Below the pieces are notes generated by a model. The model was not told the origin of the DNA. It was given only the letters and a program-made list of their open reading frames with translations, and did no database searches. From Nitrospirota bacterium (GTDB lineage Bacteria > Nitrospirota > Thermodesulfovibrionia > Thermodesulfovibrionales > JdFR-85): a DNA stretch of 38,079 bases. Location of the stretch: NCBI GenBank assembly GCA_035873375.1, contig JAYWMQ010000019.1, positions 1 to 38,079 on the forward strand, written 5' to 3'. The position numbers and the translations under genes were made by a program. Shown here one piece after another: positions 16,303 to 34,251 of this stretch (the stretch's first letter is position 1; each line of letters opens with the position of its first letter).

Positions 16303-17868
16303 TCAAACACTGCTGAATGTACTTTGCCGGGCTGGCATAATCGAGTATTTATGATATCTGAGGTTTTCCCCGGAGCCCCTTCCGTAGTAATGCCATTTAG
16401 GGAAGTTGAAGTCTGACGTGATGGATTTTGGTTGCAGCAGGACTACCTTCAGGAATGCCTCCAGATCGGGTACATTATAAACATTAACCTCGAATCCCCA
16501 CTCATCCATTTGCCCCAACAGTTGCTGCAGATGCGGGGTCTTCCAACTGAGTGAAAAGCGGTTTATGCCCCAGCTACTGAAGGTGTTGAGCAGGTCCCTG
16601 GCCTTGTCCGGGAGGCTCAGGATAAGGGGATGCATGAAATCAACGGGACACTGGATTATGGAGCCTGGAAATGTCCCGGAAAGTCTGCGGAACCCACTTT
16701 CCATGTGCACTTCCACATTTCCATTGAACCATAGCCGTGAGTCATCAAATCTGTATTCCTTCAGTACTTCTATAGTCCTTTCAATCAGGATGCCGTTTTC
16801 CTTCAGGTCAAGCTTTATGGATTTTCCATCTGCTTTTTTCATATGCTCAAGAACCTCTTCAACAAAAAGGCAGTTCTCGTTTTCTCCTGAGGGGTGTGTT
16901 TCCAATGAATCATGCCGCAGTATTATACTGTCTCTGCGTGAATCGAGCCTCAGGTCACACTCACACCATTGAATGTTTGATGCAATGAACTGGCGCAGGT
17001 TTGCCCTGTCATTTACACCGTGCCATACAAACTGAACGTGACGCGGAAGCAGATGTTCATCGATTAACTCTGTAATGTCATATGCCTTGCCACTGACTGT
17101 GACAGCCGGTAACTGCACACGTTTTGACTCAAAAATCGTATCAGCATGAAGGAGGAGTATCTCCCTGTTTGTATCAACTTCAGAAACCGACCTTAAATTA
17201 AGGGGTTCATTATCAACAAAGGCAAATATGCGGTATCCCGCCTCATGTAAGTGGATAACCCCTGCTGCTTTTGAATCCCTGATATTCGTCTCCCAGTCGA
17301 GTGGGTTCATATCAAGCAGTTCATTGGTAAAGACGGCCTTGTATTGCCTGCCCAGCTCATTGAGAGTGGCGAGGGTTTCTCTCCTGATGGATTCCGGCCT
17401 TCCGGTGTTAAGGCCGACATATGTATTTGGCTGTATCTGGAACCACCGGATTACCTCCATGGCGCCTTGGAATGGACGGTGAGATTCTGTCATGGCTGCA
17501 CGGGTCCAGCGTTCCTTGAGGTACCAGTTATGGATATGCTCTATTTGCTGATCGGGTATCTCTAATCGGGTCAGCAGGGTTTTGACCTGATTTTCATGAA
17601 CCGTGATGTCGGAAATGTTCAGTCTTTCAAAATAAGAGGTGTTGTTCTTTTTATCAAAAAGCCTCAGGACGTAGAGGATCATGTATCTCATGTCAAGGAT
17701 CGTTCCGTCAATATCAAAGAGGATTATCAGCTTGTCGTCCGGGTATAGATTCCTCATTTTCTCATAATGAGAGGCGAGTTTTTTCAACCAGCTCGCTGTA
17801 TCTTTTTTTACAAGTGCAGACTCCGGGTTTATCGGGATTGAATTATCCTTTATGGCTGGTGTTATCAT
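16303..17868 (-). CDS. HAD phosphatase fused to menorin/GDPD-like TIM-barrel phosphodiesterase
   Basis: A 521-residue two-domain cytoplasmic protein. Residues about 45-270 are HAD-like: FDIDGTILD with D52 and D54, GLNTGRPES, and FAFVDNEP near the end. Residues about 278-500 resemble the FAM151/menorin branch of the GDPD/PLC-like phosphodiesterases: WHGVNDRANLRQF, WCECDLRLDS, ILRHD, SIKLDLK, LWFNGNV and RFSLSWKT in order. A nuclease or peptidase is unlikely. Both domains suggest stepwise release of phosphate from a phosphodiester, such as a glycerophospho-compound. The Pho-type promoter on its strand puts the start codon at the predicted transcription start. It is divergent from the small Cys/GH1 operon. 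The fusion is not one I know. Confidence 0.6.
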   Translation of the reverse strand: MITPAIKDNSIPINPESALVKKDTASWLKKLASHYEKMRNLYPDDKLIILFDIDGTILDMRYMILYVLRLFDKKNNTSYFERLNISDITVHENQVKTLLTRLEIPDQQIEHIHNWYLKERWTRAAMTESHRPFQGAMEVIRWFQIQPNTYVGLNTGRPESIRRETLATLNELGRQYKAVFTNELLDMNPLDWETNIRDSKAAGVIHLHEAGYRIFAFVDNEPLNLRSVSEVDTNREILLLHADTIFESKRVQLPAVTVSGKAYDITELIDEHLLPRHVQFVWHGVNDRANLRQFIASNIQWCECDLRLDSRRDSIILRHDSLETHPSGENENCLFVEEVLEHMKKADGKSIKLDLKENGILIERTIEVLKEYRFDDSRLWFNGNVEVHMESGFRRLSGTFPGSIIQCPVDFMHPLILSLPDKARDLLNTFSSWGINRFSLSWKTPHLQQLLGQMDEWGFEVNVYNVPDLEAFLKVVLLQPKSITSDFNFPKWHYYGRGSGENLRYHKYSIMPARQSTFSSV

Positions 17869-17874
17869 GCCTTT

Positions 17875-17918
17875 ATTATAAGAGATGCCTGTTACACGTT
17901 TATTACGTTTTTGTTAAG
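17875..17918 (-). promoter_or_regulatory. Pho-box promoter P1 (three 11-bp repeats)
   Basis: Minus strand repeats CTTAACAAAAA, CGTAATAAACG and TGTAACAGGCA are adjacent. They end 5 bp before TATAAT (17880-17875), whose last base is 7 nt before the A of the ATG at 17868. The boxes replace the -35, as expected for PhoB-activated promoters, and the message should be leaderless. Confidence 0.75.
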
Positions 17919-17946
17919 TTTTTGCATGACTGTGTTTGTACTGATA

Positions 17947-17990
17947 ATTAACCTCTCCTTAACACCTCTGTAACATTATGCTGTTATGAT
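17947..17990 (+). promoter_or_regulatory. Pho-box promoter P2 (three 11-bp repeats)
   Basis: ATTAACCTCTC, CTTAACACCTC and TGTAACATTAT follow one another and end 5 bp before TATGAT (17985-17990). It is back to back with P1 and drives the small Cys protein and GH1 genes. Confidence 0.75.
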
Positions 17991-18051
17991 ATTTTCCATC
18001 AACAAGAATCCCGGCAAAAAAATTCCAGGTTATGAAAAAAAGGAGGAGGGT

Positions 18052-18219
18052 ATGTGTCTACATATGGAAATGAAGGACAGGACGTGCAGGGTTGCAGGCA
18101 TAGAGGTGGAATCAATTGATTGCGCTGATATAAAGTTATGTACAGGCAAAAGTTATGAGGTCTGTCCGGTTTACTTTGTGGGTTTCTTTCTCCAGAACCG
18201 GTTGGTCCTCCGGACATAA
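18052..18219 (+). CDS. Small Cys-rich protein (C-x7-C-P-V-Y module), Pho-controlled
   Basis: A 55-residue protein starting at an ATG 5 nt after AGGAGGAGG. Cysteines lie at C2, C12, C24, C30 and C38 (DRTCRVAGI, IDCADIKLCTG, YEVCPVYFVGFF). The end module C-x7-C-P-V-Y recurs in the small proteins at 21537 and 32193. It has no signal peptide, although the C-terminal VYFVGFFLQ is hydrophobic. A metal or Fe-S site is suggested by spacing only. It is the first gene after Pho promoter P2 and 46 bp ahead of the GH1 gene. Function unknown. Confidence 0.6.
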   Translation: MCLHMEMKDRTCRVAGIEVESIDCADIKLCTGKSYEVCPVYFVGFFLQNRLVLRT

Positions 18220-18265
18220 CAGTGCACTATTACAATAACAGGAAGATGCTGCTGGGCTTTTATAA

Positions 18266-19525
18266 GTGACACCAGGGGAGAGGGCCAGGGGCTTTCCGTC
18301 TGATTTTCTCTGGGGTATTGCAACATCAGCCTTTCAGCTCGAAGGTTCCCTCAATGCTGACTGGGCTTCATGGGACAAGACCTTGAATGAAAAGCCTGAT
18401 GTAACAAACCATTATGACCTCTATAAGGAAGACCTGCGTTTACTCAAGGATCTGGGTGTAAATTCGTACCGTTTCTCCCTGGAATGGAGCAGGATACAGC
18501 CTGAAGAAAATGTATGGGACTATGATGCTATAGCTCATTATCAGGAGATAATCGATATTCTGCTCAAAAACAATATTGAGCCAATGATTACAATCCATCA
18601 CTTTACTCACCCCCTCTGGTTTATCAAAAAGGCATGGCATGACGATGCATCCATTGAAAAATTCCTGATCTATACAAAAAAGATAGTTTCAATATTGAAG
18701 GGTGTAAGATACTGGATAACATTTAATGAACCATATGTGCTCATCCTTGGCGGGTATCTTGAGGGATGTATGCCTCCCGGCATCAGGGATGTCTCCCTGG
18801 CAGTAAAGGCATTGGAGAATATACTTGTATGCCACGGGAAGGCTTACGACGTTATACATTCGCATATCCCTGATGCAATGGTGAGTGTTGCCCATAACAT
18901 GGCGGCCTTTGCCCCCTGGCACAGATGGAATCCGGCAGACAAACTCATTTCAAGGATAGCCAGGCACTTTTACAATAACTCCCTGCTGGATGCCTTCAGT
19001 ACAGGCACACTGAGGCTGCAGTTTCCATTTAAAAAGGCCATGGAGATTCCTGTTCCGATAAAGGATAAAATCGATTTTTTCGGCGTGAATTATTATACGC
19101 GGATGCATCTCAGGTTTAACCCGTTTAAAAAGATGGGGATTGAGCTGAGGCACCGGGATATCGAGGGCTACGGGCTTACGGATATGGGATGGGAAATACA
19201 TCCGCAGGGCCTTGAAAGGGTACTGAAACGTGCGTCAAGACTGAACGTTCCCCTGATAATAACAGAGAACGGTATTGCCACCCGTGACGACCAGAAGAAG
19301 ATAAGGTTTATGAAGAAGCATATAGATGTCATAGAGAGGTGTCTGAAACAGGGAATTGACATCAGGGGTTATTTCTACTGGTCCCTGATCGACAACTACG
19401 AATGGCTCCAGGGACTTGATGCATGTTTTGGCCTTTACAGGGTCAATTTTGATACCCTCGAGCGCAAGTCTACCAATGCTGCAGCATACTATTCCTACCT
19501 CATCAAAAGCAGGTCCTCCTTTTAA
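18266..19525 (+). CDS. Family 1 glycoside hydrolase (beta-glycosidase type)
   Basis: A 419-residue GH1 TIM barrel: FPSDFLWGIATSAFQLEGS near the start, RFSLEWSRI, the acid/base glutamate E155 in TFNEP, and the nucleophile E334 in ITENG, then YFYWSLIDNYEW. No signal peptide, so it acts in the cytoplasm or on the inner membrane face. Most GH1 enzymes cleave beta-glucosides or galactosides; some, like plant SFR2, transfer sugars between galactolipids. The start is a GTG at 18266 that overlaps the stop of a short upstream frame as GTGA; no ribosome site stands out, so the N-terminus is uncertain. It belongs to the P2 operon, and its last codons overlap the P3 Pho boxes. In a phosphate-starvation island a role in glycolipid or envelope glycan turnover is more likely than sugar feeding. 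Confidence 0.85.
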   Translation: MTPGERARGFPSDFLWGIATSAFQLEGSLNADWASWDKTLNEKPDVTNHYDLYKEDLRLLKDLGVNSYRFSLEWSRIQPEENVWDYDAIAHYQEIIDILLKNNIEPMITIHHFTHPLWFIKKAWHDDASIEKFLIYTKKIVSILKGVRYWITFNEPYVLILGGYLEGCMPPGIRDVSLAVKALENILVCHGKAYDVIHSHIPDAMVSVAHNMAAFAPWHRWNPADKLISRIARHFYNNSLLDAFSTGTLRLQFPFKKAMEIPVPIKDKIDFFGVNYYTRMHLRFNPFKKMGIELRHRDIEGYGLTDMGWEIHPQGLERVLKRASRLNVPLIITENGIATRDDQKKIRFMKKHIDVIERCLKQGIDIRGYFYWSLIDNYEWLQGLDACFGLYRVNFDTLERKSTNAAAYYSYLIKSRSSF

Positions 19526-19575
19526 CTTAAAGGTAACCTTTGCTTAATGCCCCTGTAATGACAGAGACGTATAAT
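19521..19575 (+). promoter_or_regulatory. Pho-box promoter P3 (four 11-bp repeats)
   Basis: TTTAACTTAAA, GGTAACCTTTG, CTTAATGCCCC and TGTAATGACAG, ending 5 bp before TATAAT (19570-19575). The start codon at 19585 is 9 nt after the -10, giving a leader of about 3 nt. The first repeat overlaps the end of the GH1 gene. Confidence 0.8.
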
Positions 19576-19584
19576 TGAAATACG

Positions 19585-20274
19585 ATGTTGTTGTGTGATT
19601 TCCATATTCACACCAGGTACTCCGACGGCTCAGTGGACCTCAGAAGAACGGTTGACCTTTTTGGGCAGGCGGGCTTTGATGTAATTGCCATAACAGACCA
19701 TGTGGTAAATGGAGACAACACCTTTGGAAGGCTCGCTCACAAATTCAAGTTCTCTGTCAGGGAAGATAACTTTGAGGAGTATATGAGCAGGATCCGGCAG
19801 GAGGCGGCACGGGCCTGGGATAAATACGGGCTGCTCATAATTCCGGGAGTCGAGATAAGCAAGAACCACCTGTCTGCAGACAAATCCGCGCATTTCCTCC
19901 TTCTCGATATAAAGGAATTTATCCCTGCCTGCTGGGACTACGAAAGGATATTCTTTGAGGCAAAAGACCAGGAGGCACTGATAATAGCATGTCATCCGCA
20001 CCACATGTCTGATCTGTCAAGGGACACCCTGTTTCTCTGGAACAACAGGGAACGCTACGCCAAATATATTGATGCGTGGGAGATAGCCAACAGGGATGAT
20101 GTCTTTAATGTAATAAGCCTCAAAAAATACCCCTATATTGCAAACAGTGATTTCCATAAGGTACGGCACCTGTATTCATGGAAAACGCTTTTGAACTGTG
20201 AAAAAAAGATTGCATCAATAAAGCAATGTATACGGCATAACAAAGGGGTTGCAATAACTCTTTTTAGACGCTAA
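19585..20274 (+). CDS. PHP-domain metal-dependent phosphoesterase
   Basis: A 229-residue PHP protein: DFHIHTRYSDG (metal ligands H7, H9 and D14 region), AITDH, IPGVEIS, CHPHH and ANSDFH, all motifs of the trinuclear-metal PHP phosphoesterases, in the usual order and length. Relatives hydrolyse small phosphate esters or nucleotides; the substrate is open. The message is predicted leaderless from Pho promoter P3. It is followed 12 nt later by a GT21 glycosyltransferase in the same operon. By position it could release diacylglycerol or a sugar from a phosphate ester for that enzyme, a job done in other bacteria by the unrelated PlcP; this is inference. Confidence 0.8.
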   Translation: MLLCDFHIHTRYSDGSVDLRRTVDLFGQAGFDVIAITDHVVNGDNTFGRLAHKFKFSVREDNFEEYMSRIRQEAARAWDKYGLLIIPGVEISKNHLSADKSAHFLLLDIKEFIPACWDYERIFFEAKDQEALIIACHPHHMSDLSRDTLFLWNNRERYAKYIDAWEIANRDDVFNVISLKKYPYIANSDFHKVRHLYSWKTLLNCEKKIASIKQCIRHNKGVAITLFRR

Positions 20275-20286
20275 GGGAGGAAAGAT

Positions 20287-21498
20287 ATGGAGATATTCTG
20301 GTTTTTTGCTGGTTTTACGATCCTTGGACTCATTGGTTACGGGTTTCAGATAATAGCGGTCCGTTCGCAGATTTCATCCCATAACGCTGCAGAAGGTCAA
20401 GCCTCTTCCCGTTCACCTTCTTATTTACCCCCTATCTCAGTCCTTAAACCCCTGAAAGGGATAGATGACAATCTGTTTGATAATCTCGAAAGCTTCTGTA
20501 TGCAGGATTATCCGGAATTTGAAATTATATTTTCACTTCAGGACCACAACGACCTGGCATATAAAGTAGCCCGCAAGATAAAAGAGAAGTATCCGGGCAA
20601 GGACATCTCTATCATAGTCGAAAGGTGTGATGACGGATTGAACCCGAAGGTTAATAACCTCATACCTGCCTGCAAGGCTTCAAAATACGGCTACATACTC
20701 GTAAGTGACAGCAATGTGCTGGTTGACGGAGACTACCTGAAGGAGATAGTCAAGCATATGCAGGACCCGGGGGTTGGTCTCGTAAGCAACATGATAAGAG
20801 GGGTGGGCGGACGCACATCCGGCTCAATATTTGAGAACCTTCATCTAAACTCCTTTGTCCTCGGAAGTGTATGTTTTCTTGACAGGTTTTTGAAGATGCC
20901 ATGTGTTGTAGGAAAGTCGATGCTGATGCGCAAGAGCGACCTTGAAGCCATCGGAGGTTTTAAGGCTGTAAAGGACGTGCTTGCCGAGGATTATATCATC
21001 GGGAGAAAGATGAAGGAAGCGGGCAGAAGGGTGGTGCTGTCAAACTACATGATAAATACTGTGAACAAACATTGGGGGATGAAGAATTTTCTTAACAGGC
21101 ATACAAGGTGGGGAAAGCTCAGGTGGAAGATTGGAGGCATACAATATGTATCCGAACTGATCACCAATGCCGTATTCATGTCTTTTATCCCGATACTCCT
21201 CTATAAACCTTCCCGGATAACCATAGCGTTTGCCCTCTTCACGAGCCTCCTCAAGATTATGGGAGACCTCTATCTTGGCAGGATTATGAAGGCAGATATA
21301 AAGTGCCCCTTTTACATGCTGTCCCCTGTTAAGGATATAGCCATAGGATGCATCTGGGTCATCCCTCTGCTTTCAAATACGGTTGTATGGAGAGGCAACA
21401 GGTACACTATCGGAAAGGCATCACTGCTGTCGCCATGTGCTGAAAACAGCAGATGGCGATACAGGATTGCAGATGTGATAAGGGCAAGATTTGCGTAA
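20287..21498 (+). CDS. GT21 (ceramide-glucosyltransferase-like) membrane glycosyltransferase
   Basis: A 403-residue inner-membrane glycosyltransferase: an N-terminal membrane anchor (residues about 2-24), a GT-A catalytic domain with ISVLKPLKGID, VSDSNVLV (D141), LAEDYIIGR (E234, D235) and RHTRW at 271-275, which is the D1,D2,D3,(Q/R)XXRW set of family GT21, and two or three C-terminal membrane segments (about 288-325 and 345-365). GT21 enzymes glycosylate ceramide, and in Agrobacterium a GT21 enzyme makes glycosyl-diacylglycerols when phosphate is scarce. GGGAGGAAAG lies before the ATG. Being under a Pho promoter, it most likely makes a phosphate-free glycolipid to replace phospholipid. A hopanoid-modifying (HpnI-type) role is the main alternative. 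Confidence 0.8.
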   Translation: MEIFWFFAGFTILGLIGYGFQIIAVRSQISSHNAAEGQASSRSPSYLPPISVLKPLKGIDDNLFDNLESFCMQDYPEFEIIFSLQDHNDLAYKVARKIKEKYPGKDISIIVERCDDGLNPKVNNLIPACKASKYGYILVSDSNVLVDGDYLKEIVKHMQDPGVGLVSNMIRGVGGRTSGSIFENLHLNSFVLGSVCFLDRFLKMPCVVGKSMLMRKSDLEAIGGFKAVKDVLAEDYIIGRKMKEAGRRVVLSNYMINTVNKHWGMKNFLNRHTRWGKLRWKIGGIQYVSELITNAVFMSFIPILLYKPSRITIAFALFTSLLKIMGDLYLGRIMKADIKCPFYMLSPVKDIAIGCIWVIPLLSNTVVWRGNRYTIGKASLLSPCAENSRWRYRIADVIRARFA

Positions 21499-21536
21499 CC
21501 GGAGGAGAAATCAAGAAAGGATTAAGGAGGGTTCAA

Positions 21537-21737
21537 ATGGAAGTCATATTGTCCGGCGGGTATTTACGTGAGGGGATAACAAGGCATAAAAATGTCTGTC
21601 CCTATAACCATGGAAGTGTCTGTGTTGCCTCTATATCCTCTTTCCTGATCGGGCATCAGAGAAAGGCGGATTGTTGCGAGACGGAAGAGTATGACAACTG
21701 CCCGATGTTTCTTTCGAAGATATTGAGAAAGGGGTGA
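21537..21737 (+). CDS. Small Cys-rich protein (CC-x7-C-P-M-F module)
   Basis: A 66-residue protein with the start 6 nt after AAGGAGG. Cysteines: KNVCPYNHGSVCVAS near the middle, then ADCCETEEYDNCPMFLSK near the end. The closing C-x7-C-P-[MV]-[FY] module is shared with the genes at 18052 and 32193. No signal peptide or membrane helix. It is the third gene of the P3 operon, 38 bp after the GT21 gene. Function unknown; the basic C-terminus (SKILRKG) and Cys pattern suggest a small metal-binding partner. The 97 bases after it hold nothing recognisable. Confidence 0.6.
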   Translation: MEVILSGGYLREGITRHKNVCPYNHGSVCVASISSFLIGHQRKADCCETEEYDNCPMFLSKILRKG

Positions 21738-24278: not shown

Positions 24279-24387
24279 TCCTTTTCTTCGGAACTGAATT
24301 ATTACAACAGACTAAAGTGTACATGAAGGGGATTACAGGGCCGTTACATTAATATGAAGAGATGATTAAATGCAGGAGGGGCATATT

Positions 24388-24442
24388 CTTAACAGAGATT
24401 TAATATTTCTTTAATGCCCGTGTAACAGCAGGGGCGTATCAT
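24388..24442 (+). promoter_or_regulatory. Pho-box promoter P4 (four 11-bp repeats)
   Basis: CTTAACAGAGA, TTTAATATTTC, TTTAATGCCCG and TGTAACAGCAG, ending 5 bp before TATCAT (24437-24442). The ATG at 24452 is 9 nt after the -10, the same as at P3, so the first gene should have a leader of about 3 nt. It heads the ulosonic-acid operon. Confidence 0.8.
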
Positions 24443-24451
24443 TAATATCGT

Positions 24452-25402
24452 ATGGGAAAGGTACTGTTTATATGCGGTTCCCTCAATCAGACCACGATTA
24501 TGCACGAGATATCCAGGCATCTTTCAGAGTTCGACTGCTATTTTACACCCTATTACGGTGATGGCCTCATACATGTTCTGAACAATTACGGGATGCTTGA
24601 TTTCACTGTTATGGGCGGAAGATTCAGGCAGCAGACAGACGACTATCTGAAGAGTGCGGGGGGCAGGATAGACTACAGGGGTGCTTCCAATGATTATGAC
24701 CTTGTGGTAACGTGCCAGGATTTGATTATCCAGAAGAATATCAGAAAAAAGAAAGTTGTACTTGTGCAGGAGGGAATGACTGATCCTGAAAACTTTATTT
24801 ACCGCCTTGTCAAGAGGTTTAAACTTCCCCGCTACCTTGCAAGCACTGCTGCTACAGGGCTGTCGGATGCCTACGAAAAATTCTGTGTTGCATCTGAAGG
24901 CTACAGGGAACACTTTATCGGGAAAGGTGTGAAGCCTGAAAAGATAGCAGTTACAGGCATACCGAATTTTGATAACGCTATCCAGTATCTGGACAACAGG
25001 TTTCCATACAGGGGTTATGTCCTTGTGGCAACCTCTGATACACGTGAGACTTTTAAGCTGGATAACAGGGAGAAATTTCTCAGGAATGCTGTCTCCATTG
25101 CAAACGGACGGCAATTGATCTTTAAACTCCATCCAAATGAAAAGGTGGAAAGATCAACAAGAGAAATAAATAGGCACGCACCTGATGCCGTTATATTTTC
25201 AGATGGCGATATCAACCCCATGATAGCAAATTGCGATGTGCTGATAACACAGTATTCGTCTGTCTCATTTATAGGTCTGGCCCTTGGTAAAGAGGTATAT
25301 TCCTACTTTGATTTGGATATGCTAAGGAGACTGCTTCCCATTCAGAACGGCGGTATATCGGCAAGGAGAATTGCAGAGGTATGCAGGGGGTATCTGCATT
25401 GA
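24452..25402 (+). CDS. GT-B-type glycosyl- or glycerophosphotransferase-like protein
   Basis: A 316-residue soluble protein with a two-lobe GT-B look: VLFICGSLNQTT at the N-terminal nucleotide-fold loop, DLVVTCQDLII, KKVVLVQEGMTDPENF, GVKPEKIAVTGIPNFDN at the interdomain link (a phrase common to UDP-GlcNAc 2-epimerase and CDP-glycerol transferase relatives), LIFKLHPNE and CDVLITQYSSVSFIGLALGKEV near the C-terminus. It probably transfers the acidic sugar built by the downstream genes. No RBS, in line with leaderless start from P4. It overlaps the cytidylyltransferase gene by up to 22 bp. Acceptor unknown. Confidence 0.6.
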   Translation: MGKVLFICGSLNQTTIMHEISRHLSEFDCYFTPYYGDGLIHVLNNYGMLDFTVMGGRFRQQTDDYLKSAGGRIDYRGASNDYDLVVTCQDLIIQKNIRKKKVVLVQEGMTDPENFIYRLVKRFKLPRYLASTAATGLSDAYEKFCVASEGYREHFIGKGVKPEKIAVTGIPNFDNAIQYLDNRFPYRGYVLVATSDTRETFKLDNREKFLRNAVSIANGRQLIFKLHPNEKVERSTREINRHAPDAVIFSDGDINPMIANCDVLITQYSSVSFIGLALGKEVYSYFDLDMLRRLLPIQNGGISARRIAEVCRGYLH

Positions 25403-26187
25403 GTCAAAACATCGTAATCGTGATACAGGCAAGGTCAGGCTCTACACGCCTTCCCCGCAAGGTCTTAAAACCACTTGCTGGCAAAACCGTGCTGTATCAT
25501 ATGGTAAAGAGGGTGGAGCGGGCAAGGCTGGCAAGCCATGTGGTTGTTGCAACTACAACGGACCCCGGGGATGATATTATTGAATCCCTCTGCAGGGACA
25601 ACGGCTTTGAGTGTTTCAGGGGGAATGAAACAGACCTCCTGGACAGACACTACAGGGCAGGTATCAAGTACAATGCAGACGTGGTTGTCAAGATTCCTTC
25701 AGACTGTCCGCTGATTGACCCGCAGATTATAGACAGGGTATTGAGATATCATCTGGACAATTGCGGGAGGTTCGATTATGTAAGTAACCTCCATCCACCA
25801 ACCTATCCGGATGGCAATGACGTTGAGGTCATGCCGATGCAGGTTCTTGAGACTGCCTGGAGGGAGGCAGAAAAAGAGTTTGAAAGGGAACACACCACAC
25901 CATTTATATGGAACAATCCCGAGAGGTTTCGCATAGGAAATGTAACGTGGGAGACCGGGCTGGATTTTTCGAATATCCTCAGGTGGGTGTTGGATTATGA
26001 AGAAGACTATCAGTTTATCAGGACTGTTTATGAGGAACTTTACCCGGTTAACCCTTTCTTCGGTTTTGACGATGTGTTGCACCTTTTGAGCATACGGCCC
26101 GAAATCAGGGGCCTTAATAATATGTACCGTGGAATGAACTGGTACGGGCAATACGAGCATGAATTGAAGGCCGTTGCACTTTCATGA
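25381..26187 (+). CDS. SpsF-type cytidylyltransferase (CMP-sugar synthase family)
   Basis: A protein of about 262-268 residues with the nucleotidyltransferase core IVIVIQARSGSTRLPRKVLK, VVATTTDPGDD, VVVKIPSDCPLIDPQ (metal-binding aspartate) and YPDGNDVEVM. It belongs to the CMP-NeuAc/CMP-Kdo synthetase superfamily, SpsF branch, and should activate the ulosonic acid as CMP-sugar. Start is open: ATG 25381 has AAGGAG 12 nt upstream; TTG 25399, with AGGGGG 8 nt upstream and overlapping the previous stop, gives MSQNIVIVIQAR, a better fit to family N-termini. Second gene of the P4 operon. Confidence 0.82.
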   Translation: MQGVSALSQNIVIVIQARSGSTRLPRKVLKPLAGKTVLYHMVKRVERARLASHVVVATTTDPGDDIIESLCRDNGFECFRGNETDLLDRHYRAGIKYNADVVVKIPSDCPLIDPQIIDRVLRYHLDNCGRFDYVSNLHPPTYPDGNDVEVMPMQVLETAWREAEKEFEREHTTPFIWNNPERFRIGNVTWETGLDFSNILRWVLDYEEDYQFIRTVYEELYPVNPFFGFDDVLHLLSIRPEIRGLNNMYRGMNWYGQYEHELKAVALS

Positions 26188-26213
26188 AGAGTTTGAATTG
26201 AGATTGTCTGGAG

Positions 26214-27068
26214 ATGGATAATCATATGGAAAAACATGCCCTGATAAGGCTGAAAGAACGTGCCCTGAAGGTGAGGGGGCATATACTCGGGATGGCGGCG
26301 AGGGGCGGCTGTTTTGTGGGCTCAGCCCTGTCATGTACTGACCTGGTGGTTTTCCTTTACTCCCGGTTTCTTAATATAGCAAAGGACAACCTGAACGACC
26401 CTGGCCGTGATTACCTCTTCCTGTCAAAGGGACACGCCGTCCCCGTGCTTTACGGCACCTTTGCCGAGCTCGGCTTCATTCACCCCGGCAGGCTGAAAAA
26501 TCATCTCAGCACGGATGACTCTGTCTACTGGCACCCTAACAGGGATATCCCCGGTATAGAATTTCACTCCGGCTCCCTGGGGCATATGCTTGCCGTAGCC
26601 TCGGGTGTGGCGCTGGAGTGCAAAATGAAAAAACAGGACAACAGAATAGTGGTGATTGTCGGCGACGGAGAGCTGAACGAAGGCTCGGTCTGGGAGGCCC
26701 TGCTCATTGCCTCTGCTTACAGGCTGGATAACCTCGTTATTGTAGTGGACAGGAACCGTCTTCAGGCAAACGCAGGGACTGAAGACCTCATCCCGCTGGA
26801 ACCGTTGATTCCAAAGCTCCAGGCCTTTGGCATGTCTGTAAAAAGCATTGACGGGCATGACTTTCAGGATATGGAGGATGTATTTTCCAATATCCCTTTT
26901 GAAGCTGACAGGCCCGGTGTTGTGATAGCTCATACAATTCGGGGAAAGGGGCTGCCGGAGATTGAAGACCGTGTGGATAAATGGTTTTGTAAGTATTCTG
27001 ATGAGGAGGCAGGGCGTTTGATAAAGGCGCTGAAATCCAGTAATGAACGGTTGTTGGAAGCGATATGA
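26214..27068 (+). CDS. Transketolase, N-terminal (TPP-binding) subunit
   Basis: A 284-residue half-transketolase: SKGHAVPVLYG, HPNRDIPGIEFHSGSLGH, and the thiamine diphosphate motif GDGELNEGS through VDRNRLQ (residues about 148-180), ending GKGLPEIEDR. It pairs with the C-terminal subunit at 27300. Split transketolases are common in nucleotide-sugar clusters, where they make or cleave unusual ketoses. A 231-bp gap with two hairpins separates the halves. Confidence 0.88.
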   Translation: MDNHMEKHALIRLKERALKVRGHILGMAARGGCFVGSALSCTDLVVFLYSRFLNIAKDNLNDPGRDYLFLSKGHAVPVLYGTFAELGFIHPGRLKNHLSTDDSVYWHPNRDIPGIEFHSGSLGHMLAVASGVALECKMKKQDNRIVVIVGDGELNEGSVWEALLIASAYRLDNLVIVVDRNRLQANAGTEDLIPLEPLIPKLQAFGMSVKSIDGHDFQDMEDVFSNIPFEADRPGVVIAHTIRGKGLPEIEDRVDKWFCKYSDEEAGRLIKALKSSNERLLEAI

Positions 27069-27088
27069 CAGAGTCTTCACTCATTCTC

Positions 27089-27158
27089 GTCCCGGCATCC
27101 CGCCGGGACTCCGAGGTAATTTCGCAATTCACCATCCGGGTGAATTTAGTGCGAAATT
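27089..27158. repeat. Two strong hairpins between the transketolase halves
   Basis: First, GTCCCGGC-ATCCC-GCCGGGAC (27089-27109), a perfect 8-bp stem. Second, 27118-27158: AATTTCGC with GCGAAATT outside and ATTCACC with GGTGAAT inside. No T-tract follows either. They may be a dispersed repeat, mRNA processing or stabilising structures. The remaining bases to 27299 hold only the ribosome site GGAAGGAG for the next gene. Confidence 0.6.
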
Positions 27159-27299
27159 AAAACCGTTCAGAGTCTATCATTTCGCTCTCTTTCTATAATT
27201 GAGGCTTTTTAACGCTGGATCTGGGATTTAAAGATATTGCGCAAACTCTTTCGTCTTTGGAGAAGTGGCTGAGCACATAATGGCAGGAAGGAGCATGAG

Positions 27300-28223
27300 A
27301 TGAACTATGAAGAGCTATTAAAAGAGATTGTCCTGAGTGACGAGAGGTTTGTTGTGATGACTGCTGAAAACCGTTCAGCTATAAGGAATATTCCTGAGTG
27401 CCTTGGAGAGAGATTTATTGATGTGGGGATTGCTGAGCAGTCAATGATCGGCATTGCCGCCGGATTGGCACTGAGGGGACGGATTCCCGTTGTCCATGCA
27501 CTGTCAGCCTTTCTTACGATGAGGGCCTTTGAGTTTATCCGGACGGATATAGGCATTGCAGGTCTGCCAATAAAACTGGTCGGTGCGTTTCCGGGCTTCC
27601 TCTCAGAGGCGAACGGGCCAACCCATCAGGCCATTGAGGATATTGCGCTTATGCGGGGTATCCCTTCCATGAATGTGTTCTGTCCATCTGATGAGGAGGA
27701 TATGCTCATAGGGCTGGAGACGATACTGAAGAGTCCCCGGCCTTCATATATTCGTTTTAATGACCTTGAATCCTCAGTCAAACACGATAATGTTTTTCAT
27801 ACAGGAAGGGCTGAGATTCTTTCCGAGGGAGAGGATATCACGATTCTGACGTATGGCACCCTTTTCAGGGAGGCAAACAGGGCCATGAGGCTCCTGGAGG
27901 CAGAGGGCAAGTCAGTAGGGCTTATTAATCTCAGGACGCTGAAACCCATTGATGAAGAGACGATAATAAATGCCGCAATGCAGACATCTCTGCTCGTAAC
28001 TGTGGAGGACCACTTTCTTGCGGGAGGGCTTTTCTCGATTCTGGGAGAGATGTTTTTAAGACATAACGTTACCTGCAGGGTTCTCCCCTTCGGGCTGGAT
28101 GAAAGATGGTTCAGACCGGCCATGCTTCAGGATATCCTTGAGTGCGAAGGGCTGACAGGAGAGAAGATAGCGGATAAAATCCTAAAGGAGTCAGAAAAAT
28201 ATGCTGAGTACATTAAAGTTTAA
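27300..28223 (+). CDS. Transketolase, C-terminal subunit
   Basis: A 307-residue subunit with the pyrimidine-binding and C-terminal transketolase domains: RFIDVGIAEQSMIGIAAGLAL (the glutamate that activates thiamine diphosphate), GPTHQAIEDIALMRGIP, YIRFND and LINLRTLKPID. GGAAGGAG lies before the ATG. It overlaps the aminotransferase gene by 23 bp, so these are coupled. With the N-terminal subunit it should move two-carbon units to give the aldose or ketose precursor. Confidence 0.88.
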   Translation: MNYEELLKEIVLSDERFVVMTAENRSAIRNIPECLGERFIDVGIAEQSMIGIAAGLALRGRIPVVHALSAFLTMRAFEFIRTDIGIAGLPIKLVGAFPGFLSEANGPTHQAIEDIALMRGIPSMNVFCPSDEEDMLIGLETILKSPRPSYIRFNDLESSVKHDNVFHTGRAEILSEGEDITILTYGTLFREANRAMRLLEAEGKSVGLINLRTLKPIDEETIINAAMQTSLLVTVEDHFLAGGLFSILGEMFLRHNVTCRVLPFGLDERWFRPAMLQDILECEGLTGEKIADKILKESEKYAEYIKV

Positions 28224-29532
28224 AAAGTCTAATCCTGATATTGCCGGGTCTGACAGGCTGTATCTCCGGGCATTGGGCCTAATCCCCAATGTCACGCAGA
28301 CACTTGCCAAGGGTCCCACCCAGCATGTAAAGGGAGTTGCACCAAAGTATCTTGTAAGTGGCAAAGGTTCTCACGTTCTGGATGTGGACGGTAACGAGTT
28401 TGTTGATTTTGATATGGCGATAGGCCCTGTCTCCCTCGGCTACTGTTATGACCCGGTGGATGATGCTATCAGGAGGCAGCTTGATGAGGGGATAACGTTT
28501 TCATTGATGCATCCCCTGGAGGTAGAGGTTGCGGAGCTGATACAGAGCGTAATTCCTAATGCAGAGTCAGTTCGTTTCAGCAAGACCGGGGCGGATGTAA
28601 CCAGCGCTGCAGTCAGGCTTGCCAGGGCTTTTACAGGCAGGAATAAAATCCTCTGCTGTGGATATCATGGATGGCACGACTGGTATATTGGTATAACAAG
28701 CAGAAGCAACGGGGTTCCCCAGGCAGTCAGGGACCTTACATATACCTTCAACTACAATGATATTGATTCTGTAATGGAGGCCCTTGATGACGACACCGCG
28801 TGTGTCATCCTGGAGCCTGTTGTGTTTGAAGCCCCAAGGGATAACTTCCTGCACGCCTTGCAGGATATCTGCCGGCGCAATGGCACGCTGCTGATATTTG
28901 ATGAGATGTGGACGGGTTTCAGGCTTGCAGTAGGAGGTGCCCAGGAGTATTTTTCAGTCACTCCCGACCTTGCCTGTTACTCAAAGGCGATTGCAAACGG
29001 TATGCCCCTGTCTGTGCTGACAGGCAGAAGAGACGTTATGTCGCTCCTTGAGGAGGATGTCTTTTTCTTTACAACCTTTGGTGGTGAGGCCCTCTCCCTT
29101 GCTGCAGCACAGGCAACCATTACCGAGATAAAGACTAAGGATGTGCCTGCGTATATTTCGCTTCAGGGAAAGATATTAAAGGACGGATACAACAGGATTG
29201 CTGAAGGTCTGGATATGCCCTATACCCGCTGCACTGGATTTGATTGCCGGAGCATCGTCACCTTTGATGCATCTGCCGGTAATCCCCTGGAGATGAAATC
29301 CCTCATGCAGCAGGAGATGATAAAGCGGGGGATTCTGTGGTCAGGCTTTCATAATATCTGCTTCAGCCATACGGATGAAGACATCGAGTATACACTGAAT
29401 GTATACAGTGAGGTGTTGCAGATTTTGAAGCAGGCTGTTTCAGCAGGGGATGTCAGGGGATTTCTCGAAGGAAAGCCCCTTGAGCCGGTCTTCAGAAAAA
29501 CGTCTGGGTTCAATATAAAACCCGGAAAGTAG
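28201..29532 (+). CDS. Class III PLP aminotransferase (glutamate-1-semialdehyde-mutase-like)
   Basis: A 443-residue fold-type I PLP enzyme: KGSHVLDVDGNEFVDFDMAIG, SKTGADVTSAAVRLARAFTGR, GYHGWHDWY, LIFDEMWTGFR (PLP-ring aspartate) and CYSKAIANGMPLS with the Schiff-base lysine, then TTFGGEALSLAAA. It is closest in style to HemL, but its place inside a sugar operon and the absence of other haem genes indicate amination of a sugar keto or aldehyde group. AAAGGAG precedes the start. Confidence 0.82.
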   Translation: MLSTLKFKKSNPDIAGSDRLYLRALGLIPNVTQTLAKGPTQHVKGVAPKYLVSGKGSHVLDVDGNEFVDFDMAIGPVSLGYCYDPVDDAIRRQLDEGITFSLMHPLEVEVAELIQSVIPNAESVRFSKTGADVTSAAVRLARAFTGRNKILCCGYHGWHDWYIGITSRSNGVPQAVRDLTYTFNYNDIDSVMEALDDDTACVILEPVVFEAPRDNFLHALQDICRRNGTLLIFDEMWTGFRLAVGGAQEYFSVTPDLACYSKAIANGMPLSVLTGRRDVMSLLEEDVFFFTTFGGEALSLAAAQATITEIKTKDVPAYISLQGKILKDGYNRIAEGLDMPYTRCTGFDCRSIVTFDASAGNPLEMKSLMQQEMIKRGILWSGFHNICFSHTDEDIEYTLNVYSEVLQILKQAVSAGDVRGFLEGKPLEPVFRKTSGFNIKPGK

Positions 29533-29538
29533 GTGGTT

Positions 29539-30342
29539 ATGGATAACTTTTCATTGGAGGGCAAGGTGGCGGTTGTGACCGGCGGGCTCGGACTGCTTGG
29601 CAGGGAGCACTGCCATGCCCTCTCAGAGGCCGGGGCAAAAGTAATAGTTGCAGATCTTGATGAGAGTATGAGTCAGGAGTTTGCAGATACTCTTCCCTCT
29701 GATTCCCGGGGAATCTTCCTTGATGTAACAGAGGCTGATTCCATTAAAAAATTCCTTCAGAGGGTGACAGGAGAGTTCGGGCAGGTGGATATCCTTGTCA
29801 ATAACGCAGGGGTCAATGATATGTTTGAAAATCCTGCCCTTGCACCAGAGCTGTCAAAGTTTGAAAACTATCCGCTTCAGATGTGGAAGAAGATGATGGA
29901 TGTAAATGTAACCGGCGTATTCCTTTGCTCCCAGGTTATAGGGGGACAAATGGCCAGGCAGGGCAGCGGCAGTATCATCAATATTGCATCCATATACGGG
30001 GTTGTTGCCCCGGACCAGTCGATTTACTGCAAGCCGACGGGTGAGCAGCAATTCTACAAATCTCCCGCATATCCAGCAAGCAAGGGCGCAGTTCTCTCCC
30101 TTACAAGGTTTCTGGCATCGTACTGGGGACGGTCGGGTGTGCGTGTAAATGCCATCTCTCCAGGGGGTGTTGAAAATTCGCAGGCCACGCACTTTATAGA
30201 AAACTATTCCCGGAAGACCCCGCTTTGCAGGATGGCGAAGAGTTCGGATTACAGGGGGGCGATTGTCTTCCTGGCAAGCGAGGCATCCGGGTATATGACG
30301 GGTGCAAACATGATAGTTGACGGGGGGCTGGTTGTTATATGA
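29539..30342 (+). CDS. Short-chain dehydrogenase/reductase
   Basis: A 267-residue classical SDR: TGGLGLLG for NAD(P) binding near residue 16, VNNAGVN, the catalytic serine in IINIASIYG and YPASKGAVLSL (Tyr and Lys), then RVNAISPGGVENSQ. DLDES after the second strand suggests NAD(H). It presumably oxidises or reduces the sugar intermediate. ATG 29539 is preferred over GTG 29533, with AGGTGG in between. Four-base ATGA overlap with the next gene. Confidence 0.85.
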   Translation: MDNFSLEGKVAVVTGGLGLLGREHCHALSEAGAKVIVADLDESMSQEFADTLPSDSRGIFLDVTEADSIKKFLQRVTGEFGQVDILVNNAGVNDMFENPALAPELSKFENYPLQMWKKMMDVNVTGVFLCSQVIGGQMARQGSGSIINIASIYGVVAPDQSIYCKPTGEQQFYKSPAYPASKGAVLSLTRFLASYWGRSGVRVNAISPGGVENSQATHFIENYSRKTPLCRMAKSSDYRGAIVFLASEASGYMTGANMIVDGGLVVI

Positions 30343-30839
30343 GTCACAGCCTGAAGGAAAAGGCAGGGAAGATAAAACTCCTGATAAGTGATGTAGACGG
30401 CGTATGGACTGATGCGGGAGTATTTTATTCTGAAGACGGGGAGTTGTTAAAGCGGTTCTCCATAAGGGATGGTATGGGTGTAGAACGGCTGAGGGAACTT
30501 GTGAATGTGGAGACAGGAATTATTACAGGTGAAAACTCGGGTGCTGTTAGAAAGCGTGCCGAGAAGCTCAGGATAAAAGAGGTGAAACTGAACGTCAGGG
30601 ATAAGGCAGGGGCCTTGAAGGAGATTATGGAGAGGAGAAACCTGAGCAGTGAGGAGATATCATACATAGGGGATGATGTAAACGATATCGCAGTAATGGA
30701 GATGGTGGGGCTTTCCGCGTGTCCTGCCGATGCCATTGCATCTGTCAGGGATATTGCGGATTTTGTCTGTAACAACACCGGCGGCAACGGTGCCTTCAGG
30801 GATTTTGCCGAGATGATCATACTTTTTAAAAAGAGGTGA
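30339..30839 (+). CDS. KdsC-like HAD phosphatase
   Basis: A 166-residue HAD enzyme of the KdsC type: LLISDVDGVWTDAGVFYS (nucleophile aspartate near residue 18), GIITGENSGAVRKRAEKL and YIGDDVNDIAVM, at the family's standard length without a cap domain. KdsC removes phosphate from Kdo-8-phosphate; relatives do so for 9-phospho-nonulosonates. Placed between SDR and NeuB-like genes, it should dephosphorylate the ulosonate. Translationally coupled to the SDR. Confidence 0.85.
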   Translation: MSHSLKEKAGKIKLLISDVDGVWTDAGVFYSEDGELLKRFSIRDGMGVERLRELVNVETGIITGENSGAVRKRAEKLRIKEVKLNVRDKAGALKEIMERRNLSSEEISYIGDDVNDIAVMEMVGLSACPADAIASVRDIADFVCNNTGGNGAFRDFAEMIILFKKR

Positions 30840-30843
30840 TACT

Positions 30844-31740
30844 ATGAGAAAGGTAAGATTGAAGGACAGATTTATAGGTGATGGTGAGCCGGTTTATGTC
30901 ATTGGCGAGATAGGCATAAACCACAATGGCTCAATGGATGTGGCAAAGAAGTTGATTGACGGTGCGGCCTTTGCCGGGTGCAATGCCGTTAAATTTCAGA
31001 AGCGGACTCCTGAGAAATGCGTTCCAAAGGACCAGTGGCATATTGAGAGGGATACCCCGTGGGGAAGGATGACCTATATTGAATACAGGCACAGGGTTGA
31101 GTTCAACTGCCCTCAATACGAAGAGCTTATAAAGTATTGTTTGGCAAAGGGTATAGACTGGTTTGCCTCTTGCTGGGATGAGGAGGCTGTTGATTTTATT
31201 GAAGAGTTCTCTCCTCCCCTTCATAAGGCCCCGTCTGCAGCATTAACAGACCATTCGCTGCTTTCAAGAATGAGGTTGACCGGCAGGCCGCTTATAATAT
31301 CCACAGGTATGTCGACCATGCAGGAGATATCTGAGGCCGTAAAGGTTGTCGGGACAGAGGACCTTCTGATCGCCCATTCCACATCGACCTATCCCTGCGG
31401 CCTGGATGAATTGAACCTGAAGATGCTTATGACCCTGAGGGAGATGTTTCCTGCCGTGCCGATCGGCTACTCAGGACACGAGATAGGGCTTGCACCAACA
31501 TGGTCGGCCGTTACTCTCGGGGCCTCCTTTGTTGAACGCCATATCACCCTTGACCGTGCAATGTGGGGGACGGATCAGGCAGCCTCAGTGGAGATTATAG
31601 GAATGCATCGGCTTATAAGAAACATCAGGGATATTGAGAAGGCCATGGGAGACGGTGTTAAGCGGGTTTACGAAAGTGAACTGAGTTCCCTCAGGAAGAT
31701 GCGCCGGCAGCACAGGGAAACCGTGATGAGTGACGTCTGA
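30844..31740 (+). CDS. NeuB-like ulosonic acid synthase lacking the SAF domain
   Basis: A 298-residue NeuB-family TIM barrel: YVIGEIGINHNGSMDVAKKLID, GCNAVKFQKRTPEK, DWFASCWDEEAVDF, ISTGMSTMQEISEAV, AHSTSTYPC, IGYSGHE and ERHITLDRAMWGTDQAAS. These enzymes condense phosphoenolpyruvate with an aldose to give a sialic-acid-like or related ulosonic acid. Full-length NeuB, SpsE or PseI proteins carry a C-terminal antifreeze-like (SAF) domain of about 60 residues that contributes to the active site; here the chain ends right after the barrel (GDGVKRVYESELSSLRKMRR). That and the transketolase genes suggest an unusual product. The ATG follows AAGAGGTG. Confidence 0.85.
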   Translation: MRKVRLKDRFIGDGEPVYVIGEIGINHNGSMDVAKKLIDGAAFAGCNAVKFQKRTPEKCVPKDQWHIERDTPWGRMTYIEYRHRVEFNCPQYEELIKYCLAKGIDWFASCWDEEAVDFIEEFSPPLHKAPSAALTDHSLLSRMRLTGRPLIISTGMSTMQEISEAVKVVGTEDLLIAHSTSTYPCGLDELNLKMLMTLREMFPAVPIGYSGHEIGLAPTWSAVTLGASFVERHITLDRAMWGTDQAASVEIIGMHRLIRNIRDIEKAMGDGVKRVYESELSSLRKMRRQHRETVMSDV

Positions 31741-32069: not shown

Positions 32070-32104
32070 TTAAAAGAGGGGTCAGGTTCCGGATTTCTTG
32101 AAGA

Positions 32105-32148
32105 CGTAATACAGCTTTAATATTACTGTAGCATTGCCGTGTTAGTAT
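32105..32148 (+). promoter_or_regulatory. Pho-box promoter P5 (three 11-bp repeats, weaker)
   Basis: CGTAATACAGC, TTTAATATTAC and TGTAGCATTGC in phase, ending 5 bp before TAGTAT (32143-32148). The third repeat departs from consensus at one base. It precedes the small Cys gene at 32193 and likely phoA. Confidence 0.6.
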
Positions 32149-32192: not shown

Positions 32193-32423
32193 ATGGTCTG
32201 TAAATATTATCTTGAAAACAACAATGAATGTAAACACAGCTTGCCGGTGGTGCCATCGTACAGCAACTTCATATGTGCGCAATTTCCTGAAAAATGTCCC
32301 GTCTTTCTCTGGAAGCACGCTGCCTTGACAGAGAATATCGATCATTATGAAGGGGCAATTGAGGAGAGTGTCAAGACAGGGGTGAAACTGAAGACGTTCA
32401 GTGATAATCCTGTCGTTTCCTAA
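32193..32423 (+). CDS. Small Cys-rich protein (C-x6-C-P-V-F module), upstream of phoA
   Basis: A 76-residue protein; the ATG follows AGGGGGATAG. Cysteines: MVCKYY, NNECKHS, NFICAQFPEKCPVFLW. The C-x6-C-P-V-F end of the Cys region matches the small proteins at 18052 and 21537; a helical acidic tail follows (TENIDHYEGAIEESVKTGVK). No signal peptide. It is the first gene behind P5, 100 bp ahead of phoA. A possible pair of degenerate Pho repeats (CCTAATCGTTT, CTTAATCATTA at 32419-32440) overlaps its end. Function unknown. Confidence 0.6.
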   Translation: MVCKYYLENNNECKHSLPVVPSYSNFICAQFPEKCPVFLWKHAALTENIDHYEGAIEESVKTGVKLKTFSDNPVVS

Positions 32424-32523
32424 TCGTTTCTTAATCATTAAAGGTGTGTGCTGTTTTTTGACTCAGGCTGCAGGCGAAGATGTTGATAAACCAAACAATT
32501 TTTATCAAAGGAGGAGGCATTTC

Positions 32524-34086
32524 GTGAAGACAGGGAATCGTTTCAAGGGTTTTTTTGCAGTAAGCTCTATATTTCTTCTTTTCTACGTGCTTATGGTCTT
32601 CAGCCCGGGGGTTGCAAGGGCTGAAAACCCTGAACAATGGTTTGAGGATGGACAAAAGGCTGTTGAGGCTGCCAAGAGGCTGAAACCCGTTAACAGGCGT
32701 GCAAGGAATGTAATCCTCTTTATCGGTGATGGCATGGGTGTTTCAACTGTCACTGCCGCCCGAATCCTTGAGGGACAGCTAAGGGGAGAAACCGGGGAAG
32801 AGAATCTGCTGAGCTTTGAAAGGCTGCCTTATGTGGCGCTTTCAAAGACCTACAACACCAACCAGCAGGTGCCTGATTCAGCAGGGGCCATGACCGCAAT
32901 GGTGACAGGCGTAAAGACCAAGGCAGGCCTTATAGCCGTCAACCAGAATGTTATACGCGGTGATTACACCACTGTTTCAGGGAACGAACTCACCACAATA
33001 CTTGAGATAGCGGAGAAGGCCGGGATGTCAACAGGCGTGGTAACTACAACCCGCATAACCCATGCAACCCCGGCTGCGACCTATTCACACAGTCCCGAGC
33101 GCAACTGGGAAGATGACCATGACCTTCCCGCTGATGCAAAGGCGGCTGATTTTCCGGATATCGCCCGTCAATTAATAGAGTTTCCCTATGGCGACGGACT
33201 GGAGGTCGTGCTTGGTGGTGGTCGCCGCAGCTTCCTGCCAAGAAGCATGTCAGACCCTGAGTATCCGGACAGGACAGGTGAGAGGGATGATGGCCGTTAT
33301 CTGGCAGAAGAGTGGCAGGAAAAGTATCCCTTTTCAGTCTATGTCTGGAACAAAACCCAGTTTAATGCCGTTGATCCTTACAGTACGAAACACCTGCTCG
33401 GATTATTTGAACCCTCACATATGAAGTATGAGTACGACCGTTCCGGTGATGCTGCCGGAGAACCTTCCCTGAGCGAGATGACTTCAAAGGCCATTGATAT
33501 CCTTTCAAGGAATAAAAAAGGCTTTTTCCTGATGGTTGAAGGAGGCCGGATTGACCATGCCAGCCATGCCGGCAATGCATTCCGTGCCCTTACAGAGGCC
33601 ATTGAATTTTCAAATGCGGTTAAGACCGCTATGGAGAAGATCAACCCTGAAGATACACTGGTTATAGTTACGGCAGACCATAGTCATGTATTCACGATGG
33701 CAGGTTATCCGACCCGTGGAAACGACATCCTGGGTAAGGTCATCGGCAACGACAGCAGGGGAGAGCCCTTGACGGATTATGCAACGGACTCCAACGGCCT
33801 TCCATACACTACTCTTGGCTATGCCAACGGCCCCGGTTACATCCCGGGAGACAGGCCTGACCTTACCGGTGTGGATACCGCCGCTCCCGACTACAGGCAG
33901 GAGGCAACCATTCCCAAACGCAGTGAGACACATGCCGGGGAGGATGTTGCAATCTATGCCGGGGGCCCGGGGGCAAGTCTGCTGCACGGTGTTCAGGAGC
34001 AGAACGTGATTTATCACGTCATTGCTGAGGCGTTAAAGGCAGGACATATTGGACATAAGGGAGATTATGGAAAAGGCAGAAGATAG
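32524..34086 (+). CDS. phoA: Exported alkaline phosphatase (PhoA superfamily)
   Basis: A 520-residue periplasmic phosphatase. The GTG at 32524 is chosen because AAAGGAGGAGG lies 6 nt upstream and it starts a clean signal peptide (basic KTGNRFK, hydrophobic core, cleavage after GVARA). Metal and active-site motifs: FIGDGMG (D69 region), VPDSAGAMTA with nucleophile S119, VEGGRIDHASHAGNA, VTADHSHV and ETHAGEDVAIY. It frees phosphate from organic monoesters. It is followed by a strong terminator and then pstSCAB, and preceded by the small Cys protein gene behind P5. The chain is somewhat longer than E. coli PhoA. Confidence 0.92.
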   Translation: MKTGNRFKGFFAVSSIFLLFYVLMVFSPGVARAENPEQWFEDGQKAVEAAKRLKPVNRRARNVILFIGDGMGVSTVTAARILEGQLRGETGEENLLSFERLPYVALSKTYNTNQQVPDSAGAMTAMVTGVKTKAGLIAVNQNVIRGDYTTVSGNELTTILEIAEKAGMSTGVVTTTRITHATPAATYSHSPERNWEDDHDLPADAKAADFPDIARQLIEFPYGDGLEVVLGGGRRSFLPRSMSDPEYPDRTGERDDGRYLAEEWQEKYPFSVYVWNKTQFNAVDPYSTKHLLGLFEPSHMKYEYDRSGDAAGEPSLSEMTSKAIDILSRNKKGFFLMVEGGRIDHASHAGNAFRALTEAIEFSNAVKTAMEKINPEDTLVIVTADHSHVFTMAGYPTRGNDILGKVIGNDSRGEPLTDYATDSNGLPYTTLGYANGPGYIPGDRPDLTGVDTAAPDYRQEATIPKRSETHAGEDVAIYAGGPGASLLHGVQEQNVIYHVIAEALKAGHIGHKGDYGKGRR

Positions 34087-34178: not shown

Positions 34179-34207
34179 TCCCATCAAAACAGCCTTCTTC
34201 CTGAAAA

Positions 34208-34251
34208 ATTAACGTATCTGTAATATTACCGTAACACGCAGATGTTAATAT
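34208..34251 (+). promoter_or_regulatory. Pho-box promoter P7 (distal pst promoter)
   Basis: ATTAACGTATC, TGTAATATTAC and CGTAACACGCA, ending 5 bp before TAATAT (34246-34251). Its transcript would begin near 34258 and read through the mini-ORF and the second Pho array into pstS. Confidence 0.75.

Follow-up and report, generated by a model that had tools for sequence, protein, structure and literature searches.

A candidate phosphate-starvation lipid-remodelling operon in Nitrospirota with a PHP-family phosphoesterase in the place of PlcP

Known remodelling systems and the Nitrospirota operon

Bacteria such as Sinorhizobium, Agrobacterium, SAR11, Methylosinus and Pseudomonas possess a remodelling pathway, built on PlcP and Agt, in which phospholipid is converted to diacylglycerol and then to glycolipid (PMC9239053, PMC3972451). 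In the anaerobe Desulfovibrio alaskensis, which carries the Agt Dde_3613, glycolipids and ornithine lipids take the place of most phospholipids when phosphate is low (PMC5193443). Pgt, a processive glycosyltransferase found in Agrobacterium and Mesorhizobium, likewise makes glycosyl-diacylglycerol; the Agrobacterium enzyme prefers diacylglycerol over ceramide, and a Pho box is predicted for its gene (PMC3972451). A comparable locus is present in a Nitrospirota bacterium with a genome of 2.67 Mb that is 99% complete. The window, which is the whole stretch of DNA analysed, consists of one contig (C19) of 38,079 bases and contains adjacent genes for a GH1 beta-glycosidase, a PHP-family phosphoesterase and a GT21 lipid glycosyltransferase (Table 1). 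These genes probably constitute a phosphate-starvation operon that swaps phospholipids for sugar lipids. In the closest named relative, a Nitrospirota metagenome-assembled genome (MAG; L110), the three proteins are each 93-96% identical to those of the window.

Like the PlcP-Agt system, this locus features a phosphate-linked gene pair in which a phosphoesterase is adjacent to a lipid glycosyltransferase, and Pho boxes are recognizable in its sequence. Unlike that system, its phosphoesterase has a PHP fold and not the calcineurin-like fold of PlcP, its glycosyltransferase belongs to GT21 and not to the GT4 family of Agt, a GH1 enzyme is additionally encoded, and the phyla concerned are different. 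The Agt of D. alaskensis also differs from GT21, being of the glycosyltransferase group 1 type, and PlcP is not mentioned in the main text of that study (PMC5193443). With UGCG, the ceramide glucosyltransferase of family GT21, the window's enzyme shares sequence similarity and a (Q/R/H/K)xxRW motif, but its acceptor is predicted to be diacylglycerol and its gene lies in a bacterial operon. Pgt, which we take to be a member of the GT21 family, has not been reported together with a PHP enzyme or a GH1 enzyme, and its products are diglycosyl lipids.

In the proposed mechanism, low phosphate would cause a Pho regulator to switch the operon on. The PHP protein, a soluble phosphoesterase with a trinuclear metal site, would generate diacylglycerol from phospholipid or phosphatidate on the cytoplasmic side of the inner membrane, acting as a phospholipase C (the slightly preferred mode) or as a phosphatidate phosphatase. 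GT21, a membrane protein akin to ceramide glucosyltransferase, would place a sugar, probably glucose from UDP-glucose, onto this diacylglycerol to yield a phosphorus-free glycolipid. GH1, which is kin to membrane-associated beta-glycosidases that favour hydrophobic aglycones, may trim, transfer or recycle the sugar.

Linkage and phosphate control

The original prediction treated PHP and GT21 as a unit, and this is borne out across the phylum. Of the 246 Nitrospirota genomes searched, 45 encode a PHP orthologue (69-87% identical), and the same 45 encode a GT21 orthologue. The two genes are adjacent in every one of these genomes, separated by a median of 34 nucleotides (nt), compared with 12 nt in the window; one genome has a second PHP copy, the sole exception to the pairing. 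A second, named collection shows the pairing at 66 of 68 loci. GH1, whose place in the module had also been proposed and is upheld, ends 59 nt before PHP in the window, lies directly upstream at 36 of 64 loci and is nearby at 19 more. In Thermodesulfovibrio, it is shifted by a few kilobases, yet remains within a cluster containing pst genes. Furthermore, genes for Pst, PhoU, PhoR-like or PhoA proteins flank the PHP-GT21 pair at about half of the loci, including a PstB-type ATPase at 17.

Because related genomes are not independent, the cases from other phyla weigh most (for genomes of the collection, the phylum is that of the named record at the centre of each search). Desulfurella acetivorans has GH1, PHP, GT21 and pstS in this order with phoA nearby, and the Desulfurella arrangement runs from the triad through pstS and an EAL gene to phoA. 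The triad is also present in Desulfobacterota (L175, L176, L178 and L205-L209) and, at 32-44% identity, in Acidobacteriota (L203 and L204); in three other Acidobacteriota loci (L184, L201 and L202), a GT2-like gene lies directly upstream of PHP. A separate feature of the PHP-GT21 neighbourhood is a conserved 238-amino-acid Metallophos_2 protein encoded at or near the pair in L078, L082, L085, L087, L091, L093, L094, L100 and L102; in several of these, an alkaline phosphatase gene intervenes.

Pho boxes were defined as direct repeats of (C/T)TGTAACA at a spacing of 11. They were scored with a weight matrix for the 11-base repeat that had been trained solely on sequences upstream of pstS in other genomes, the window being excluded. 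A first model, overfitted to Thermodesulfovibrio spacers, missed the box ahead of GH1 and gave way to one built from repeat units with the spacer positions left out. With the final model, the pstS boxes of the window itself come out at 25 bits. The three-unit box before the divergent HAD gene at 17887 and the two-unit box before GH1 at 17957 each score at a level expected 0.01 times per shuffled window, and the latter is also picked up by a genome-wide pattern scan. GH1 is the second gene behind its box, following a small Cys-rich open reading frame (ORF). The claim that all four proposed genes stand behind Pho boxes thus holds for the HAD gene and, by way of the Cys-rich ORF, for GH1; the box before PHP is weak in the window and good in relatives. 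At the PHP position of 31 Nitrospirota sequences, the median score is 11.7 versus -0.8 for other genes, and 17 of the 31 reach at least 11 compared with 27 of 422 other genes (6%; Fisher p 3e-11, computed over related genomes that are not independent). A box before PHP is conserved in Desulfobacterota as well (L206, L207 and L208). Together, the boxes in the window and the conserved PHP box in relatives support predicted Pho control of the GH1-PHP-GT21 operon, as originally proposed.

The enzymes, their fusions and the lipid acceptor

The PHP protein matches TM0559 of Thermotoga maritima (PDB 2anu), a member of the same PHP subfamily with unknown function, at 2e-73 and about 43% identity by sequence; the fold match extends over the full length with a TM score of 0.85-0.87. 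It has the PHP fold and the ligands of a trinuclear metal site, and these ligands (H7, H9, H39, E90, H137, D189 and H191) are invariant in 20 of 20 sequences from several phyla. In or near Verrucomicrobiota, all 14 PHP relatives detected form the C-terminal portion of a longer frame; 8 are loci of one collection, an unclassified MAG being the source of one, and 6 come from a set of 195 genomes. The fusions that were scanned contain MGDG_synth (PF06925) and mostly GT28 too, while one that is cut by a contig end retains only the GT28 part. For the N-terminal half of one fusion, the best named model is diglucosyl-diacylglycerol synthase (1e-47). A domain of the UgtP or monogalactosyldiacylglycerol (MGDG) synthase type (GT28) is joined to the same PHP domain, which points to diacylglycerol as the lipid concerned. 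Judged by sequence, the fusion is the strongest single reason for thinking that PHP supplies or otherwise serves diacylglycerol glycosylation. MGDG synthase was not found in a genome-wide search of the window's own genome, where GT21 takes its place. Among the papers searched, none ties a PHP domain to glycolipid synthesis.

On balance, it is somewhat more likely than not that this PHP subfamily, TM0559 included, is the first lipid phosphoesterase of the PHP superfamily. Whether as a phospholipase C or as a phosphatidate phosphatase, it would stand in for PlcP in five phyla or more, and its coupling to a lipid glycosyltransferase would take three forms: in an operon with GT21 and a membrane-type GH1, in an operon with GT2, and by fusion to MGDG synthase. 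A polyphosphate-kinase-like gene beside one fusion (L180) was set aside, as the other fusions have no such neighbour. Related PHP domains also occur at the N-terminus of proteins in three Desulfobacterota loci (L210, L212 and L213) with PhoB- or PhoR-like genes next door; in L210, the protein runs on into a response regulator and a histidine kinase.

The replacement of PlcP is further suggested by the rest of the genome. The plcP check proposed with the original prediction, carried out with an LpxH model and a survey of the Metallophos family, found no LpxH- or PlcP-like protein in the window's own genome, whose six Metallophos proteins resemble the YfcE, LpxG/YaeI, SbcD and YmdB types; among the 45 genomes with PHP, the LpxH model gave one weak match. 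A second Pho-boxed locus of related content is present elsewhere in this genome, but it is not a plcP-agt pair, which would have spoken against the module. The genome-wide scan found four perfect Pho-box matches, three of them on the window's contig and all of those in the pstS promoter. The fourth precedes a locus on contig C17 (L244:4802-8442, minus strand) that comprises a Cys-rich ORF, an 804-amino-acid fusion of a PHP-type N-terminus to a GT4 domain and, behind it, a radical SAM gene. By its sequence, this locus represents a possible second phosphate-controlled glycolipid route, so the effect of knocking out the GH1-PHP-GT21 module alone might be masked.

GT21 belongs to its family by Pfam match (PF13506) and by D..D..(Q/R)xxRW motifs kept in 60-64 of 64 orthologues; in the form (Q/R/H/K)xxRW, the last motif is kept in all 64. 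Over its catalytic half, the protein aligns with structures of ceramide glucosyltransferase (2e-40). GH1 contains both catalytic Glu motifs (TFNEP and ITENG), and NEP and ENG are present in 44 of 44 orthologues. Its best solved relative is BGPh of Pyrococcus horikoshii (1vff; 1e-89, 304 bits versus about 225 for most others), which is membrane-associated and favours long alkyl glucosides (PMC4687101). Unlike the window's GH1, BGPh is archaeal and not known to be Pho-regulated. In this operon, GH1 may serve recycling, chain editing or an SFR2-like transfer.

Alternative explanations, neighbouring genes and significance

The same glycolipid module could operate with PHP as a phosphatidate phosphatase that diverts new phosphatidate to diacylglycerol and leaves existing phospholipids intact. 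PHP enzymes that cleave phosphodiesters exist but are rare (PMC11656708). For this reason, phospholipase C action, which would be new for a PHP enzyme, is offered conditionally and phosphatidate phosphatase is a serious, if less probable, alternative, all the more because PHP enzymes are mostly monoester phosphatases and the fusion with a diacylglycerol glycosyltransferase suits either source of diacylglycerol. Phospholipase C retains the preference in that known phosphate-starvation pathways rely on such an enzyme (PlcP) and PHP diesterases do occur. A different acceptor is unlikely: GT21 would glycosylate ceramide or another neutral lipid, and PHP would dephosphorylate the phosphorylated form of that lipid, for example ceramide phosphate. 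Ceramide glucosyltransferase is the best solved match of GT21, and phosphate-starved Caulobacter makes glycosphingolipids (PMC6445935), but Verrucomicrobiota fuse the same PHP domain to a diacylglycerol-type glycosyltransferase and bacterial Pgt favours diacylglycerol. That GT21 is instead a hopanoid-modifying enzyme unrelated to phospholipid replacement is highly improbable and largely refuted. NCBIfam HpnI is its best named model, but the score of 254 bits falls below the cut-off of 310. Moreover, no hopene cyclase was found in a genome-wide search of the window's own genome or in most relatives with PHP, and in other genomes distinct HpnI-like paralogues (about 31% identical) share their contigs with hopene cyclase genes. 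Hopanoid action, which the original prediction had named as a way for the idea to fail, is thereby made improbable.

The genes might also form a Pho-regulated scavenging set, with PHP as a nucleotide or sugar-phosphate phosphatase, GH1 as an ordinary beta-glucosidase and GT21 serving a surface glycan. In general, PHP enzymes often act on nucleotides, GH1 enzymes are often catabolic and Pho regulons are rich in scavenging enzymes. Such a set is nonetheless improbable here, as it hardly explains the invariant pairing of PHP with a glycosyltransferase or the PHP-MGDG synthase fusions; additionally, GH1 is nearest to a membrane-type enzyme, and the lack of an export signal by eye in PHP or GH1 would argue against scavenging. 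The HAD/menorin fusion, a member of the module as first proposed, does not fare as well as the other three genes. It is doubtful that it is a true part, freeing phosphate from the glycerophosphodiesters of phospholipid breakdown, despite its strong Pho box, its divergent position in the window, a GDPD-type fold match and its occurrence next to the operon in L110, a close species. Orthologues occur in only 5 of the 246 genomes, none of the other four carriers has PHP-GT21, and no clear Pho box was seen in the upstream regions of those four. On this distribution, it was rejected as a core component and, being absent from all other PHP-GT21 genomes of the phylum sample, is described separately below.

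Several points count against phospholipid replacement by the GH1-PHP-GT21 operon, beyond the rarity of PHP phosphodiesterases. The PHP box in the window scores low, no convincing Pho box was seen upstream of the Verrucomicrobiota fusions, and the module is patchy, with three genomes of the same family lacking PHP-GT21. The absence of PlcP was judged from the LpxH model and the Metallophos family and not from the PlcP sequence itself. A hydrolase within a synthesis operon is odd, and the sugar could instead be transferred to ceramide or some other lipid. Even so, a Pho-controlled lipid-remodelling module without PlcP, the central idea of the original prediction, is well supported by comparative evidence; the enzyme chemistry, namely the substrates, the direction of reaction and the choice between phospholipase C and phosphatidate phosphatase for PHP, is what we infer.

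Table 1. Features of the window, with positions counted from its first base
Feature	Position	Strand	Evidence
HAD/Menorin-GDPD-like fusion ORF	16303-17868	-	Pfam Acid_phosphat_B 1e-7, Menorin 4e-4
Pho box, three units, before HAD gene	17887-17919	-	ACTTAACAAAAACGTAATAAACGTGTAACAGGC; score 19.0
Pho box before small Cys-rich ORF and GH1	17957-17978	+	CCTTAACACCTCTGTAACATTA; two-unit score 18.2
Small Cys-rich protein, 55 amino acids, first ORF behind Pho box	18052-18219	+	Read from sequence
GH1 beta-glycosidase	18266-19525	+	PF00232 7e-86
Weak Pho box before PHP	19520-19541	+	TTTTAACTTAAAGGTAACCTTT; score 9.2
PHP-family phosphoesterase, proposed PlcP substitute	19585-20274	+	PF02811 1e-7
GT21 lipid glycosyltransferase	20287-21498	+	PF13506 4e-46, 157 bits
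Small Cys-rich protein, 66 amino acids, operon end	21537-21737 (from likely ATG)	+	Homologues 3' of GT21 in several relatives
Pho box	32104-32136	+	
Small Cys-rich ORF	32193-32423	+	
Alkaline-phosphatase-like gene ORF	32401-34086	+	
Pho boxes	34207-34350	+	
pstS, pstC, pstA	34378-37325	+	

The positions of the four originally proposed genes are confirmed, and all four lie within the range first given, 16303-21737; the end of that range belongs to a small Cys-rich ORF and not to GT21. The alkaline-phosphatase-like gene and pstSCA, of which the original prediction made no use, lie in the same window. Pho boxes also occur within 24387-31740, before an operon with genes for a NeuB-like synthase, a KDO-type cytidylyltransferase, a KDN-9-phosphatase-like HAD and split transketolase/DXS-like proteins, which perhaps directs nonulosonate-type sugar synthesis under phosphate control.

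The HAD fusion matches the Menorin model at 20.3 bits, below the cut-off of 25, and its low-confidence structure model matches HADs and the GDPD 3no3. Given the Pho box before its gene in the window and the GDPD structures that figure in its fold matches, it may plausibly salvage phosphate from glycerophosphodiesters. Its orthologues in L106-L108 have no clear Pho box and neighbour a gene that, judged by eye, resembles inositol-1-phosphate synthase. The small Cys-rich proteins form a family of about 55-95 amino acids with the motif C..C...C....[YH]..CP[FV], and are often encoded first behind Pho boxes. Besides the three in the window, members include L244:8517-8792 (minus strand) and clusters in relatives, in two of which 8 of 11 and 5 of 6 members stand first behind Pho boxes. 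Searches of Pfam and PHROG gave no match for these proteins; L008 has a copy of the 55-amino-acid ORF in the corresponding position, with 65% identity.

The gene plcP is the usual search handle for phospholipid replacement under phosphate limitation. If the pairing of PHP with a glycosyltransferase does the same job, remodelling would have been overlooked in Nitrospirota, Desulfurella, Desulfobacterota, Acidobacteriota and Verrucomicrobiota, groups of importance for the sulfur and nitrogen cycles and for groundwater poor in phosphorus. A testable function would then be at hand for 2anu, a solved but uncharacterised structure released in 2005, as would a candidate source of the glycolipids seen in anoxic waters.

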